Assembly (NCBI GenBank): GCA_016210055.1 | Contig: JACQUZ010000172.1 | Coordinates: forward strand, 1-64,000 | Direction of reading: 5' to 3' | Length of the DNA stretch: 64,000 nt | DNA from: Deltaproteobacteria bacterium | Lineage (GTDB): Bacteria > Myxococcota_A > Polyangia > Haliangiales > SHYZ01 | Part shown: positions 2,594 to 12,191 of the stretch, in pieces | Layout: the number at the start of each line of letters is the position of its first letter | Numbering within the stretch: the first letter of the stretch is position 1 | Notes under the pieces: generated by a model | What the model was told of the DNA's origin: nothing | What the model saw: the letters and a program-made list of their open reading frames with translations, nothing else | Databases searched by the model: none | Translations under genes and position numbers: made by a program

Positions 2594-4555
2594 TTGCTAG
2601 GCCATGGCCGTCCAACGCGACCGGATGCGGAGTGGCTCGAGGCCGACGGGCTGGGCGGATTCGCGTCGGGCACGGTCTCCCTCGTGCGCAGGCGGCGCTA
2701 CCACGGCCTGCTCGTCGTCGCCACCACGCCACCGACCGGCCGCGTGATGCTCGTGAGCGGCTTCGACGCCCACGTGACGACGCCCGGCGGACGATTCGCC
2801 CTGACGTCGCAGCGGTACTCGCAGGACGTGGTCCATCCCGACGGGGCTAGCCGCGTCGTGGCCTTCGAGGGCGAGCCATGGCCATCTTGGCGCTTCCAGC
2901 TCGAGGATGGCACGAGAATCGAGCAGGAGGTCTTCGTCACCCACGGCTCGCCGCGGGTGGTCGTGATGTGGCGACTCCTCGACCCACGAGCGAGCGTGGT
3001 GCTCGAGGTGCGGCCGTTCCTCTGCGGCCGCGACTTCCACGCCCTGCACCGAGAGAACCCGGTCCTGCGCTTCGACGCCGAGGCGACGGGCGAGGAGGTA
3101 CGCTGGCGGCCCTACGCTTCGGTCCCCGCGATCGTCTCGATCTCGAACGGCGAGTATCACCACGAGCCCCATTGGTACAGGAGCTTCTTCTATACCGAGG
3201 AGCATGCCCGTGGCCTGGACTTCACCGAAGATCTCGCCGCCCCCGGAACCCTTGCCTGGGACCTCGCCAGTGGTCCGGCCGCCTGGATACTCCTTCCAGA
3301 GGACAAGGCGCCGTCGGCGGTTACGCGTGCTCCTGCCTCCCACCTGGCTCTCGAGCTCGCCGATGTGGAGCGTCGGCGTCGAGCCGCGTTTCCGTCGCGG
3401 CTGCACCGGGCGGCGGACGCGTACCTGGTGACCCGCGGCCGTGGCCAGACGATCATCGCCGGCTACCCCTGGTTCTCCGACTGGGGACGCGACACGTTCA
3501 TCGCGCTCCGTGGCCTCTGCCTGGCGACCGGTCGCCTTGACGAGGCGCGCACGATCCTGCTCGAGTGGGCAGGTGCGCTATCGGGTGGCATGCTCCCCAA
3601 CCGATTCCCGGACCACGCCGAGGCGCCCGAGTTCAACTCGGTCGATGCCTCGCTGTGGTTCGTGATCGTCGTGCACGAGCTGGTCGAGGCCTTCGCTCGT
3701 CGGCACCGAGAGCTGCCCGCGTACGAGCGCAAGCTCCTCGAGGAGGCGTGCGAGGCGATCCTTTTCGGGCATGCGACGGGGACGCGGCATGGCATCCGAC
3801 TCGACGAAGATGGCCTGCTCGCCGCCGGTGAGCCGGGCGTGCAGCTGACCTGGATGGACGCGAAGGTGGGCGACTGGGTCGTCACTCCGCGTATCGGCAA
3901 GCCCGTGGAGGTGGAGGCGCTATGGCTGAATTCCCTAGCGATCGGCGGCGCGTGGTCGGAGCGCTGGCGGCGAGCCTTCGAGAAAGGTCGCGAGGCGTTC
4001 GCGAGGCGCTTCTGGAACGACGCGGCGGGGGCGCTCTACGATGTGGTCGACGTCGATCATCGCCCGGGCGCGTGTGATCCCAGGTTCCGCCCCAACCAAG
4101 TCCTCGCGGTGGGCGGCTTGCCGCTGATGCTGCTCGACGGTGGACGCGCCCGCCGCGTGGTCGATGCCGTCGAAGCTCGTCTCGTGACTCCGCTGGGCCT
4201 GCGATCGCTCGCTCCCAGTGAGGCGGGGTATTCGCCGCGCTATGAAGGCGGGGTGCGCGAGCGCGACTCGGCTTACCATCAGGGGACCGCGTGGCCGTGG
4301 CTCATGGGACCCTTCGTGGAAGCCTGGGTCAGAGTACGTGGCGACACGGCCGATGTCCGGAGCGCTGCGCGTGACCGCTTCGTCGCCCCGCTCATGGCGC
4401 ACGCCCTTGAGCAGGGCCTCGGCCACCTGTGCGAGATCGCTGACGCCGAGCCGCCGCACGTGCCGCGTGGTTGCCCGTTCCAAGCGTGGTCGCTCGGCGA
4501 GCTCCTTAGGCTCACCCTCGACGTTCTCGCACCGCCACATCGGAGCCAGCGATGA
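2594..4555 (+). CDS. Glycogen debranching enzyme (amylo-alpha-1,6-glucosidase)
   Basis: Removes alpha-1,6 branch glucose from glycogen or related glucans, releasing glucose for the upstream glucokinase. The 653-residue product begins with the N-terminal domain signature [17 protein letters not shown] near residue 12 and carries the (alpha/alpha)6 catalytic domain, visible as [17 protein letters not shown] near residue 290, [10 protein letters not shown] near 330 and the late YHQGTAWPW motif near 560. The reading frame is open far upstream inside zwf, but those codons are Arg/Pro/Ser-rich noise. I place the start at TTG 2594, which has GGGGAGGG about 10 bases upstream and fits the family N-terminus; this start is inferred. 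The stop overlaps the next ATG (ATGA). Confidence 0.88.
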
Positions 4556-7214: not shown

Positions 7215-7775
7215 CTACGCCTCTGGCTGCCACTCCCGACCGGCGAACGCCGAGTCGAGGGGCGTCTTCGCGAGGTGATTGGTGTAGTTGCTCAGCGTCT
7301 TCATCGTGACGCCCACCAAGACCTCGAGGACGTGGTGAGGCTGGTAACCGGCGTCGATGAAGGCTTGGACGATACTGGCCTCAGGGCGGCCCCGTCCGCG
7401 CACGACCGCCTGCGTGAGCTGGCGCAGCGCTTCGAGCTTCCGATCGTCGAGGGGGACTCCATTCCGGATGGCCTCAGTGTAGTGCGGCGGATCCTTCTGC
7501 ATGTCTGCGACCGCGCTGTGGGCCGCCACGCAGTACCCACAGCCATTTTCGCGGCTGGCGGCGAGTAGAACAATGTTGCGCTCTGTCGCCGACAGCGTGC
7601 CGCGTTGGAACGCGTCGCTGATCGCCAAGTAGGCATCGAGGGCGATGGGAGCGTTGGCGAAAATACGGTACAGGTTCGGAACAAGCCCGTATTTCTTCTC
7701 CACGTTGGCCAACGTGGCACTTACTGAGCTGGGCGCGGTCTTGGAGTCGAGCAACGGCAGATTGAGCTTCGGCAT
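7215..7775 (-). CDS. AhpD/carboxymuconolactone decarboxylase-like peroxidase
   Basis: A 186-residue CMD-domain protein of the AhpD-like peroxidase class, which uses a CxxC pair and a proton-relay Glu/His to reduce peroxides or disulfides. The catalytic signature is complete: E76, C79-G-Y-C82 and H86 in the order ExxCxxCxxxH. The start at 7775 (MPKLNL) has a strong GAGGAG ribosome site just upstream; the frame stays open further upstream but without coding character. The gene is divergent from the putative selenoprotein operon, with about 145 bases between starts that presumably hold both promoters. That pairing with thioredoxin-like genes suggests a shared oxidative or thiol stress role, which is inference. 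Both Cys are encoded by Cys codons, so this is not the selenocysteine AhpD variant. Confidence 0.88.
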   Translation of the reverse strand: MPKLNLPLLDSKTAPSSVSATLANVEKKYGLVPNLYRIFANAPIALDAYLAISDAFQRGTLSATERNIVLLAASRENGCGYCVAAHSAVADMQKDPPHYTEAIRNGVPLDDRKLEALRQLTQAVVRGRGRPEASIVQAFIDAGYQPHHVLEVLVGVTMKTLSNYTNHLAKTPLDSAFAGREWQPEA

Positions 7776-7921
7776 GAGCACACTCCTCGGTTGGGTTGGG
7801 CTTCGTTGTGTCGTCTCACGAGGGCGGAACTCGTTACGGCCGAGCCCCGCCTCGGAGCTGCAAAAGAAGAGGCGACGCGTCCGAGCCGACCGCAACGGGC
7901 CTGGCCCGGGCCGTGCAGCGG

Positions 7922-9787
7922 ATGCCTTTTCGCATGCCAAGACCCCTCAATACCGTTCCACCGTGGAAAAGATCTCTTCCTTTTTGGACGGCCATGGCAG
8001 GGGCCGCACTCCTGCCAGGCTGCGGAAGCTCCCCAGTCAAGCCGGTTTCGGTGCCGACTGACGGGGGGCCCGTTCATCCCGGGTCGTACGAGGATGGGTT
8101 CGTCAAGCTCGAGCGCCTGGCCGGATCGACGTTTGTCGAGATCCTGGAGGTGCGGGCCCGAGACGACGATCGATTGTTTTTCTGCACCGGCGTGCGCGGG
8201 CTTCAGGTCGTGGACATCTCGCGTCCGAGCAAGATGTCCACCCTTCATCAGCTCGCCTCTTCGCTCGGCTCAGCCCAGTACCCGCGGTGCCAGCACCTGG
8301 CCTGGGACGGCGACATCGTCTACGTGACCAATCGTGGAGACGAGATCCAGCCGCAGGCATTCGTGGCGGCCTTCGACATTGGGCAGTCGCCGCCGCGCGA
8401 GATCGCGACCTACCGAAAACCTGGGCGCACGTTCGAAGGCATCGCCGCGGCAGGAGGGCGCGTGTACCTCGCGATGCACAAGGACGGCCTCGCGGTACTC
8501 GAGCGAGAAGGGGGAACGATCTCGGAACGAGGAGTCGCCACTGGCCTGGTCAACGCTTGGGGCGTGGCCGCGGCTGGAGCGCACGTCTACGTGGCGGATG
8601 GAGCCGGCGGCCTGGCCATCATCGACGCCAGTGACCCACGGGCGCCCCGTGTCGTCGGACGCGTGGAGACCGGGGGGGCCGCACAGTCTGTCTTCATCGA
8701 CGGGGCCGTTGCATACGTGGCGGCAGGGGCCGCTGGGCTCGTGGTTGTCGACGTGAGAGACCCTGCTATACCGGCCGTCCTCGCCTCGGTCGATACTCCG
8801 GGTTCTGCTCTCCAAGTGGCCGTTGCCGGCGGCCGCGCCTACGTGGCCGATTGGAACGACGTGCGGGTGTTCGACGTGTCGAACCCTGCCGCCCCTAGGC
8901 TGACGGCGACAGAGCGCATCGACACGGGCGAGGCGTTCCCGCGGGTGCTCGGGGTAGGTGCGAAGGACGATGTCGCGTTCGTCGGCGAGTGGACGGGCCT
9001 CTATAGCTACCGCTTCGTGCCGGGCCGAGACGCACCCGACGTGGCCTTCTCCGAGCGCGAGCTCGAGTTCGGCACGGTGCCCTCCGGGGGCGCTGACGCC
9101 ATCGCGCTGATCGTGGAGAATGAAGGCACCGCTCCTCTCGTCGCCTGGTCCATAGAGGCCCAGGGCAGCGCGTTGAGCGTTGACAGGCCACAGCTCGTGC
9201 TACCGCCGGGCGGCCGCCAAGCCGTGGAGATCACGTTTCGACCCGACTCGGCTGCGCAGATGACGGGCCGCCTGGTCGTGCGATCGGATGATCCTGATGA
9301 GCCCACGCGCTTCTTGCCGATCGTGGGCAATCGCGGCGGGCTTGGCGTCGGGGATCCTGCGCCGGAGGTCCGCGTCGAGCTGCAATCGGGCGGCGAATGG
9401 AAACTCTCGGAGCAGGCGGGCAAGACCGTCCTCCTCGCCTACTTCGCCACGTTTTGACCCGTCTGTGGTCTGGAGTTTCCAGACCTGGAGACGAGCTTCT
9501 GGCAGCCATACAAGGATCGTGGTCTCGTGATTATCGGGGTCGATCCCGGCGGACTCTTCGGGGGTGACGACGCGACGATGCTGTCCCGTTTTGCAGAGCA
9601 GACCGGTATCACGTTCCCGATCGGCTGGGATACCGATGGTACCTACCGTGACTTCCGGGTCGGCGCCGGGATCGCGCCGTTCCCCCTCGACGTCGTGGTA
9701 GGACCGGATGGCCGCATTGCCTATCTTAGCCGAGAGTACGAGCCAACAGAGCTCAAGGCCGTCGTGGAGTCGCTGGTCTCGCCATGA
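7922..9787 (+). CDS. LVIVD/redoxin lipoprotein with in-frame TGA, probable selenoprotein
   Basis: Read through the TGA at 9455-9457, this is one 621-residue secreted protein. Order: signal peptide with lipobox LPGC; a beta-propeller of LVIVD-type repeats (for example GGLAIIDASDPRAP, GLVVVDVRDPAIP); an Ig-like domain (LEFGTVPSGG to VVRSDDP); then an AhpC/TlpA-type redoxin domain. The TGA (residue 512) falls in FATF-U-PVC, the first position of the CxxC active site, and the same frame runs on for 110 codons of clear redoxin sequence (LEFPDLE, VIIGVDPGG, PFPLDVVVGPDGRIAY). The next gene starts by ATGA overlap with the true stop. Read as a normal stop, translation would end at 9457 without the catalytic Cys. 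The start is uncertain (ATG 7922 or 7934). A sequencing error or Trp readthrough are the alternatives. Confidence 0.82.
9455..9493 (+). promoter_or_regulatory. SECIS-like hairpin directly after in-frame TGA
   Basis: Starting 2 bases after the TGA, CGTCT (9460-9464) pairs with AGACG (9489-9493), and GGTCTGG (9467-9473) pairs perfectly with CCAGACC (9479-9485), closing a 5-base loop AGTTT (9474-9478) with a small 2x3 internal loop between the stems. This is 12 base pairs in 34 bases inside coding sequence. Bacterial SECIS elements sit immediately 3' of the UGA and present an apical loop with an early G roughly 16-37 bases downstream; here the loop begins 16 bases after the UGA and reads A-G. 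This supports selenocysteine insertion by SelB. Pairing was done by eye. Confidence 0.72.
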
Positions 9788-10386
9788 GGGCTCGTATTGG
9801 GCTGGCTCTCGTAATCTTCGTTGCCCATGGTTGCCAAGGCCATGGCTCTCCAAGCGAGGGGGACGCCGCCGAGCTGCCGGAGGCGTGCTTGCCCGTGCCC
9901 ACGCCCATGGACTGGTCATATCCAATTGGCCCGTACGGCGACCAAGTCGGCAGCCGACTCGAGGAGTTCACCCTCGAGGACTGTGAAGGTACCCCGGTCG
10001 CGTTCGGGGACATTCTCTCGGAGGCCGAGCTCGTGCTGGTCTCGGTAGGCGCCGGTTGGTGTCAGCCTTGTATCGAGGAGAGCGCGACCCTTGAAGCCAA
10101 AGTACACGCTCCGCTCTGCGCCCGGGGCCTGCGCGTCATCCAGGTCCTTTTCCAAGATGACGAGTCGCGGCCGGCGACGAAGCTATTTTGCCGGGAATGG
10201 CGCGAGCGCTTCGGGCTGCGCTTTCCCGTGCTGGTCGACCCGCTGTTCACCATGCAGCGCTACTTCCAGGCCGCGCAGACCCCGCTCAACCTGCTCGTAG
10301 ACCGAAGCGGGATCATCCGCTACCGCGCCACTGGGACTGCGCCCGCGGACCTGCCGGAGCGCATCAGCGAGCTCTTGCCACCGTGA
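9784..10386 (+). CDS. Thioredoxin-like (redoxin) exported protein
   Basis: A 200-residue exported thiol-disulfide protein. A hydrophobic N-terminus ends in VAHGC, a poor lipobox, so it may be a lipoprotein or a soluble periplasmic protein. The thioredoxin fold follows from about residue 58, with the active site WCQPC (C93, C96) and the cis-Pro region TPLNLLVDRSG near 170. It starts inside the stop of the putative selenoprotein (ATGA), and its own stop overlaps the GTG of the next gene (GTGA). Three consecutive thioredoxin-like domains (UxxC, CQPC, CVPC) are therefore translated as one unit, which suggests a periplasmic redox relay. The electron donor and substrate cannot be deduced. Confidence 0.85.
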   Translation: MRARIGLALVIFVAHGCQGHGSPSEGDAAELPEACLPVPTPMDWSYPIGPYGDQVGSRLEEFTLEDCEGTPVAFGDILSEAELVLVSVGAGWCQPCIEESATLEAKVHAPLCARGLRVIQVLFQDDESRPATKLFCREWRERFGLRFPVLVDPLFTMQRYFQAAQTPLNLLVDRSGIIRYRATGTAPADLPERISELLPP

Positions 10387-12191
10387 CCGAGGCGACGCTC
10401 ACCGTCTACCTCTTCTTCGCGACTTGGTGCGTACCCTGTCGGCAGGAGATGCCCCTCATCGCCGGGATGGAGCGCGAGTGGACGGCGCGCGGTGTCCGCT
10501 TCGTCCTCGTGTCGCAGGATGCCCCCTCGACGCTGGCCAACGTCCCTTCGTTCCTCGGGCGTTACGGCGTCACCTCCGAGGTCGTGTACGACACGGACTC
10601 CACCCTCGCCGAACGCTACAACCCGTCGGCGGCCTTGCCGTTCGTGGCCGTCGTGGACGCCTCGGGGGCGCTGATCTGGTCGCACGCCGGATATGAACCG
10701 GGCGACGAGCAAGGCTTGGAGCAGGTCCTTCTCACGCGATCGGCAAGCGGGCTGCCTCTCCGCGGCGCGACCATGACCATCACGAGCCAGGCGATCGGGC
10801 TCGTGAGGCGCGAAGACTTCCGCGGCACGGGGGATCCGGCGCTCACGGGCGGCATCGAGCGCCTAGATCTCGTGGGCGAGAGCGGCCGGCTGCGCGCCTC
10901 GGTGCGGCTGGACGGCACGTTCTTCGACTTGCCCATGGGCACGACCGATGATGCACGGGTCGAGAAGATGTCGCTCGAGCACGGCGTGGGGCCGGTCACT
11001 GGACGTCTCGGCGACTCATATGCGGCCTTTGGCCACGGCCTCACGCTCTCCGTGCGCAAGGTGGATCCCCTCGGAGTCGACACCACCATCCGCGGCGCGC
11101 GCCTTGACGTCGCGACCGACCACTTTGCCTCCACGATGATTGGCGGGGCCTTCAACCCGCAGAACACGAACCCGATCGATCTTAGGACCTTCGACGACCC
11201 GAATGACTTTGTGGCGGGCATGGAGGTCCGCCAGCGGGTCGGGAGACTCGACGTGGGGCAGTCGGCGGTGCTAATGTCGGCGCGCGGTGCTGCGCCCGAC
11301 GGCCGCGATGTGGACTACGTTGTCGCCGGTCTTTCAGCAGATGGGCGCTGGCCTGGCCTACGCTTTGGTCTCGAAGGGGTAGGGCTCTGGCGGCGAGGCC
11401 TCGTCTCGAGCGATGCCACGGAGGCCGGGCACGGGGTCTACGGAATGCTTGCCCTGGACCTTGGGCCTGTCACCTTGCTCGCGGACGGCAAGTGGTACCG
11501 CCGGCTTGCCTTGGGACGTGACTTTCCCACGCTCGCGTACCACGAGCCACCCACGCTCGAGCGTGAGGACCAAGAGCTTCCCGGCAATGCCGACGCGGTC
11601 GGGGGTCGCCTGCGGGGAGAGTGGCGGGTTGGCCAGCGCACGACAATCACGGCGAACATGCTCGGCTATCGCTTCGCGCAGGACGGCACGGATCCCATGA
11701 GAGGTGGCCTCGCGCTGCACGGGTACCTGGCTGGCGAGCAGAGGTTGGCGAATGGCGCAGCGACCGCCCTGTCGGTCGGCATGCGCGATGAGGAAGATCC
11801 GAATGGCACCCCTCTCCTGTCGCTCGTGCAGATCAATGCCGACGCCGCGACGCCCCTCGGTCCACGACTGGGCCTTACCGCCAAGTGGGACCATCGATCC
11901 GAGACGAAGACCCTGTTCTCTGGACCCCGCCGCTTCGTGCGGGGCCTGGCGGTCATCGGCTTTTCGTGGACAAGGGTGGTCACCGCGTCGGCGCTCTACG
12001 GCTACTCGACGGAAGCCGAGGCGCGGCCCGTGCATTACCCGGGCGCCGAGATAAGGTTCGAGCTGGGCCGCCACGGCGACTTGCGGCTATTCGTGGGCCG
12101 GCAGGTCGGCGGTCGGGTCTGCGTGTCGGGTGCTTGCCGTGAGGTTCCGCCGTTCGAGGGCGGGCGCCTCGAGGCGACGCTCAGGTTCTGA
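10383..12191 (+). CDS. TlpA-like thioredoxin domain fused to outer-membrane beta-barrel (DUF6029-like)
   Basis: From GTG 10383 the product is 602 residues: a thioredoxin domain at residues 1-120 with active site CVPC (C16, C19), then a long beta-barrel of alternating strands (GRLGDSYAAFGHGLTLSVRKVD, NPQNTNPIDLRTFDDPNDF) ending in a terminal Phe, LEATLRF, typical of outer-membrane proteins. The barrel resembles DUF6029. The oddity is that no signal peptide precedes the thioredoxin domain, although the barrel must be exported. Upstream in-frame codons overlap the previous gene and look like noise. Either a -1 frameshift near 10380 fuses it to the preceding exported thioredoxin, giving a double-thioredoxin barrel, or the assembly has an indel. 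The start is therefore provisional. Confidence 0.72.
   Translation: MTEATLTVYLFFATWCVPCRQEMPLIAGMEREWTARGVRFVLVSQDAPSTLANVPSFLGRYGVTSEVVYDTDSTLAERYNPSAALPFVAVVDASGALIWSHAGYEPGDEQGLEQVLLTRSASGLPLRGATMTITSQAIGLVRREDFRGTGDPALTGGIERLDLVGESGRLRASVRLDGTFFDLPMGTTDDARVEKMSLEHGVGPVTGRLGDSYAAFGHGLTLSVRKVDPLGVDTTIRGARLDVATDHFASTMIGGAFNPQNTNPIDLRTFDDPNDFVAGMEVRQRVGRLDVGQSAVLMSARGAAPDGRDVDYVVAGLSADGRWPGLRFGLEGVGLWRRGLVSSDATEAGHGVYGMLALDLGPVTLLADGKWYRRLALGRDFPTLAYHEPPTLEREDQELPGNADAVGGRLRGEWRVGQRTTITANMLGYRFAQDGTDPMRGGLALHGYLAGEQRLANGAATALSVGMRDEEDPNGTPLLSLVQINADAATPLGPRLGLTAKWDHRSETKTLFSGPRRFVRGLAVIGFSWTRVVTASALYGYSTEAEARPVHYPGAEIRFELGRHGDLRLFVGRQVGGRVCVSGACREVPPFEGGRLEATLRF

Follow-up and report, generated by a model that had tools for sequence, protein, structure and literature searches.

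The window analysed here, a stretch of 64,000 nucleotides, carries a gene (gene 1) in which the TGA codon at positions 9455–9457 is almost certainly read as selenocysteine (Sec, U) at the active site of a redoxin domain. Judging from the sequence and its homologues, the best overall explanation, to which we give a probability of roughly 0.93, is that gene 1 encodes a selenoprotein that acts as an exported, probably lipid-anchored Sec–Cys thiol–disulfide oxidoreductase. The gene and its active site are located as follows:

7934–9787, + strand: gene 1, LVIVD-propeller/Ig/Sec-redoxin lipoprotein, read through the TGA at 9455–9457 (putative start codon)
9455–9457, + strand: TGA codon predicted to be read as selenocysteine, residue 501 of the product P0001 (of 88 homologous domains, 69 have TGA here and the other 19 Cys)
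9455–9466, + strand: U-P-V-C active-site motif (sequence and alignment of homologues)

At positions 9455–9466 of the forward strand, which read TGA-CCC-GTC-TGT, the first Cys of a CPVC motif is replaced by TGA inside an AhpC/TSA–redoxin domain, in agreement with what the first-pass annotation had noticed there. The open reading frame 7796–9457 closes at this TGA; when the codon is translated as U, the same frame runs on for 109 codons to the TGA at 9785–9787, giving ...KTVLLAYFATF-U-PVCGLEFPDLE... around the site. A single Pfam AhpC-TSA match (residues 465–590, E 3e-15) covers both sides of U501, confirming the annotation's further observation that redoxin sequence lies on both flanks in one frame. 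The likely start is the ATG at 7934, which opens a signal peptide with Lys/Arg; other candidate starts are located at 7913 and 7922. The window is G+C-rich and contains 85 TGA codons that are preceded by at least 100 and followed by at least 60 open codons; 17 of these 85 lie near a Cys. A long open frame with a nearby Cys is thus weak evidence by itself, and the case rests on conservation among homologues.

A profile search over 379 genomes sampled from the phylum gave matches in 75 genomes. The matching regions were aligned with stops read through, and the codon was inspected in 88 redoxin domains. Of these, 69 had TGA and 19 had Cys, and no other residue occurred in any of the 88, although other residues would have shown up because the search read through stops. 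The comparison that the first-pass annotation had proposed, looking for U or Cys at this codon in homologues, thus returned these two states alone. Full-length orthologues were found in the nearest genomes (G002, 57% identity; G022, 53%), and these two and the orthologue of Paraliomyxa miuraensis, a named myxobacterial isolate, have TGA at the same codon; YFATF-U-PVC is common to all four proteins. The P. miuraensis member groups inside the family tree, which suggests that the sampled phylum is Myxococcota. In total, 46 genomes (44 from the 379-genome sample, G022, and P. miuraensis) contribute at least 69 members to the Sec family. No homologues were found in the viral contigs and phages searched, and a plasmid search returned distant ResA/TlpA matches only.

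Several genomes (G261, G302, G333, G360, G196, G251, G252, G134, and G347) contain three family copies each, mostly Sec forms, a pattern that, on sequence, reflects expansion within genomes. One member (L098, G252:C158) has two TGA codons in the matched region, the second of which might be either a second Sec codon or a stop.

The breadth of this conservation bears on whether the TGA is a sequencing or assembly error for TGC, TGT, or TGG, or the mark of a decayed gene. Such a reading would fit both the draft state of the source genome, which is in 180 contigs, and the occurrence of the Cys form in 19 homologous domains. However, the identical TGA is present in 69 domains from many independently assembled genomes, one of them a named isolate, the frame is maintained past the TGA, and a hairpin with covarying arms follows it. 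We therefore consider error or decay extremely improbable for the window, and for the family the compared sequences indicate that this reading is already refuted.

A second alternative is that the UGA is a genuine stop, which would leave a truncated LVIVD–Ig lipoprotein and a downstream half that is a remnant or is independently translated. Standard annotation would end the gene at the UGA, and wherever a UGA encodes Sec, termination is a competing outcome. Nevertheless, a stop here would fall within the redoxin domain, right at the active site, the part past the UGA is under purifying selection in the same frame, and both a hairpin helix and the Sec machinery are present, which together make termination as the normal outcome highly unlikely. 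Identity past the UGA was approximately equal to or above that before the UGA in all pairs, and dN past the UGA was lower than dS in every pair with an estimable dS (0.29 versus 1.14 between the window and G002).

The genome from which the window derives encodes the machinery that Sec insertion would require. We identified selA (E 8e-144), selB, a tRNA-Sec gene (selC; 76.8 bits) with the anticodon TCA (UCA), and a selD gene (L018, G000:C68:8067–8990, − strand) with its own in-frame TGA in LSHGGG-U-ACK, HGGG-U-ACK being the known Sec form of SelD. All four genes for which the first-pass annotation had suggested searching are therefore present. Across the 379-genome phylum sample, selA was found in 40 of the 44 genomes with a Sec form versus 200 of the 335 others (Fisher p 2e-5), and the four Sec-form genomes without a selA match, as well as G022, had selB above the cut-off. 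selA was also present in 16 of the 17 genomes with Cys forms only, so loss of the machinery does not explain the Cys forms.

These data also bear on the reading of the UGA as another amino acid, such as Trp or Cys, by a near-cognate tRNA, a type of stop readthrough that does occur in bacteria. The sole alternative residue in homologues is Cys, with Trp never seen; TGA serves as an ordinary stop within the same operon (gene 2); the genome has the full Sec machinery together with a Sec-type SelD; and a hairpin of the bacterial SECIS form lies at a fixed distance from the codon. Insertion of an amino acid other than Sec is accordingly given very little weight.

The predicted RNA element that follows the Sec codon is:

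9460–9493, + strand: bacterial SECIS-like stem–loop, upper stem 9467–9474/9478–9485, loop GUU (folding, synonymous shuffles, and family covariation)

The 58 nt around the site (9453–9510) fold at −22 kcal/mol, and folding of the stretch after the TGA in the window was stronger than in 200 of 200 synonymous shuffles (z −2.99). Family-wide, folding energy relative to shuffles did not distinguish the two forms (mean z −0.51 in Sec members versus −0.29 in Cys members, p 0.30). Since overall energy is non-discriminating, the RNA evidence depends on a helix in a fixed register. In all 69 Sec members, the longest helix downstream of the UGA adopted either of two fixed registers (45 in one and 24 in the other), with a mean helix length of 6.6 bp in Sec members versus 3.0 bp in Cys members, and the Cys members lacked the hairpin with a single exception, the G283 member. 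In the register-44 group, the arms paired in 267 of 270 cells, against a mean of 224 and a maximum of 242 in 2000 arm swaps, a control that does not give a probability because the sequences are related to one another. Slid registers paired at 0.19–0.46 versus 0.99 for the true register. Individual stem positions were of the GC, CG, AT, and TA types among members, with pairing kept, and double changes at three stem pairs were already seen within the four closest orthologues; the lower stem was weak in G002.

The first base of the apical loop, approximately 17 nt past the UGA, was G in 69 of 69 Sec members. Where this G is the third base of a Glu codon, the codon was GAG in 68 of 68 cases, whereas elsewhere in the same genes Glu was encoded by GAG in 1495 and by GAA in 334 of 1829 codons. 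A hairpin with a loop G at a fixed distance matches the appearance of known bacterial SECIS elements. An Rfam scan of the site matched no family, and the SECIS_1 model was silent in the controls too; as Rfam thus held no useful SECIS model, a direct test of covariation was used. The SECIS-like hairpin predicted in this way independently supports the Sec reading. The two registers, which differ by one base (bases 13–31 past the TGA), track protein subfamilies: i+j=44 is found in LEF/LEV-type members and 45 mostly in SEV-type members.

In terms of domain structure, the read-through product comprises four predicted parts:

7934–8023, + strand: predicted lipoprotein signal peptide, lipobox L-P-G-C, Cys codon 8021–8023 (from sequence)
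8099–9025, + strand: beta-propeller of LVIVD repeats (Pfam PF08309, E 6e-33; AlphaFold strands 49–357, mostly pLDDT >90; PDB propeller matches)
9035–9328, + strand: Ig-like domain of the ASH/HYDIN type (PF22544, E 1e-11)
9347–9754, + strand: AhpC-TSA/Redoxin (TlpA/ResA-like) domain with U501 and C504 (PF00578, E 3e-15; PF08534, E 2e-11; ResA structures by profile)

Pfam, the lipobox sequence, and structure prediction thus agree with the architecture proposed in the first-pass annotation, namely an LVIVD propeller, an Ig-like domain, a Sec redoxin, and a lipid anchor. The AlphaFold model of the read-through product had a mean pLDDT of 92.2, and the thioredoxin fold was completed by the part after the UGA. 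Among 38 members, the redoxin domain was detected in 37, LVIVD repeats in 34, and the HYDIN-type Ig model in 17. The gene 1 product is probably exported and lipid-anchored, as its signal sequence suggests. The lipobox is plain in the window protein, and a crude lipobox pattern matched in only 18 of 49 members, so that the lipid anchor is supported for the window protein and not family-wide.

Within the AhpC-TSA/Redoxin domain, a [CU]xxC pair lies at the start of helix 1; position 501 (U or C) is invariant and C504 nearly so (alignment A3). A Pro in the loop opposite the active site (P577) is invariant in the four orthologues and conserved in at least 90% of the 38 members. The role of the protein is most likely that of an exported thiol–disulfide oxidoreductase with a Sec–Cys pair. 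A selenoprotein acting mainly as a peroxidase, in the manner of peroxiredoxins, would also be compatible with the Pfam assignment to AhpC/TSA, and many Sec redoxins are peroxidases. On the other hand, the PxxxTxx[CU] motif is absent, YFATFU having its Thr two rather than three residues before U, the UxxC pair is retained, and the closest solved relatives are ResA, TlpA, and DsbE. Given the missing peroxiredoxin motif, peroxidase action is kept as a rival that is unlikely, though it deserves more weight than any of the alternatives to Sec itself.

Gene 1 is followed by two further redoxin genes:

9784–10386, + strand: gene 2, Cys redoxin (GAGWCQPC), predicted to be exported (Pfam; ATGA overlap with the gene 1 stop)
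10383–12191, + strand: gene 3, Cys redoxin (FFATWCVPC) with a DUF6029 C-terminal region (PF08534, PF19494; GTGA overlap)

In the sequence ATGA, the gene 1 stop at 9785–9787 overlaps the start codon of gene 2, and in GTGA the gene 2 stop likewise overlaps a GTG of gene 3. Such overlaps are usual for co-translated operons and therefore fit a reading of gene 1 that extends past the UGA. In both G022 and P. miuraensis, homologues of genes 2 and 3 adjoin gene 1, and gene 2 homologues adjoin the gene 1 homologue in G048, G360, and G195; the recurrence of adjoining redoxin genes in relatives supports a shared redox task. Past the close relatives, a neighbourhood survey, which was mostly swamped by antisense frames, recovered only the gene 2 redoxin and one uncharacterised downstream gene as recurrent.

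Several further observations concern the neighbours. Gene 3 opens straight into the redoxin domain without a signal peptide, and its DUF6029 region is a probable outer-membrane barrel; in P. miuraensis (L050), the redoxin and the barrel look like two separate genes. Directly upstream of gene 1 and divergent from it lies a gene of the carboxymuconolactone decarboxylase/AhpD family that has a CGYC motif (7215–7940, − strand). In G048, a gene-2-type redoxin reading EGAFW-U-GACQEE (L023, G048:C278, + strand near base 3948) stands beside a Cys-form LVIVD redoxin, and this partner itself appears from its sequence to be a selenoprotein. A second redoxin near an LVIVD gene in G043 (L028, G043:C650, − strand) reads SGSEW-U-PPCRQRL and is a probable further UxxC selenoprotein.

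For the mode of action of the gene 1 product, we infer Sec insertion, membrane anchoring, the direction of electron flow, the partners, and the substrate along the following lines. The UGA at 9455–9457 would be decoded as Sec by a ribosome with SelB and tRNA-Sec(UCA), aided by the stem–loop at 9460–9493 just downstream. In the exported product, an Ig-like spacer would connect a beta-propeller platform to the C-terminal TlpA/ResA-like redoxin, with the propeller and Ig domains presumably positioning the redoxin domain or binding its target. Sec501 would act as the nucleophile that attacks an oxidised substrate (a disulfide or similar), and Cys504 would resolve the mixed selenenylsulfide. This thiol–disulfide oxidoreductase action would take place outside the cytoplasm (periplasm or cell surface), with electrons probably exchanged with the two Cys redoxins of the same operon.

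Relatives of the individual domains are known. The best solved-structure relatives of the redoxin domain are ResA, TlpA, and DsbE (CcmG), which are likewise exported, membrane-tethered redoxins with a CxxC motif, whereas they are single-domain, Cys-only proteins and the gene 1 product adds a propeller and an Ig domain and has Sec for the first Cys. A thioredoxin-like domain and a beta-propeller are also joined, outside the stroma, in the plant thylakoid-lumen protein SOQ1 (Suppressor of Quenching 1), which differs in domain order and propeller type and is not known to contain Sec. SOQ1 was both the top whole-chain fold match (7djl) and a sequence match (7djj), with a poor superposition (TM 0.33–0.41, rmsd approximately 19 Å), and we treat the likeness as a lead only.

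UxxC Sec redoxins have already been described (PMC13188914, PMC9312934, PMC2398784). Table 1 of PMC13188914 lists Prx-like thiol:disulfide oxidoreductase selenoproteins (PF00578, UxxC) and a 'Redoxin family protein' (PF08534, UxxC), which share with gene 1 the Pfam domains and the N-terminal Sec of UxxC; unlike the gene 1 product, these entries are given no propeller or Ig fusion. The listed 'Redoxin family protein' (representative HEU0032618.1), compared by description only, could overlap the present family. This 2026 inventory of 119 selenoprotein families contains no LVIVD or propeller redoxin and names no Myxococcota (PMC13188914). The Global Ocean Sampling survey of 2008 reported Prx-like Sec domains fused to extra domains, namely PP2C phosphatase, secretin-N-like, and unknown domains, and none with LVIVD (PMC2398784). 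No NCBIfam selenoprotein model matched at its cut-off; the best, NF041425, scored 19.6 bits versus a cut-off of 100 and did so on the Ig domain. A literature search on selenoproteins of Myxococcota found nothing relevant. The suggestion that gene 1 represents no described selenoprotein family hence holds for the fused architecture, which is absent from the inventories searched, but not for the Sec redoxin domain alone, which is of the described UxxC kind. The inventory of 119 families covers neither the fusion, nor its wide occurrence, nor the preponderance of Sec forms over Cys forms; gene 1 is therefore classed as a known Sec domain in a new, widespread, multi-domain exported family. On the evidence of the sequences, it belongs to a large family of selenoproteins from myxobacteria and related bacteria, undescribed in the published lists searched.

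On an unrooted tree, the Sec/Cys label required at least five changes, all five forced by well supported branches. The G283 member (L088, G283:C3:42647–43969) has Cys (TGC) and still carries the SECIS-like hairpin, and in this stretch its sequence is almost the same as that of a TGA member (L084). A recent replacement of Sec by Cys is the likely explanation, with an assembly difference as the alternative. In the Cys clade of genome family f29 (L078, L081, L129, L131, L132, and L137–L141), the second Cys of the motif has been lost (CPVA/CPMA), suggesting that this clade has changed function. As a broader and tentative proposal, for which we would give less than even odds, Sec may be the older as well as the prevailing state in a phylum-wide set of surface or periplasmic propeller–redoxin lipoproteins, often with several paralogues per genome, from which Cys forms were derived more than once, and which together with the neighbouring redoxins (some of them Sec forms) and the outer-membrane barrel may constitute a previously undescribed extracytoplasmic selenium redox relay.

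Because standard gene callers stop at UGA, members of the family are probably annotated as truncated propeller lipoproteins. The gene 1 family would add a new multi-domain architecture to the selenoproteins, and since it includes numerous Sec forms, several Cys forms, and one apparent recent convert, it is a good test case for Sec-to-Cys exchange. The occurrence of a member in P. miuraensis, a named isolate, makes the family experimentally accessible.
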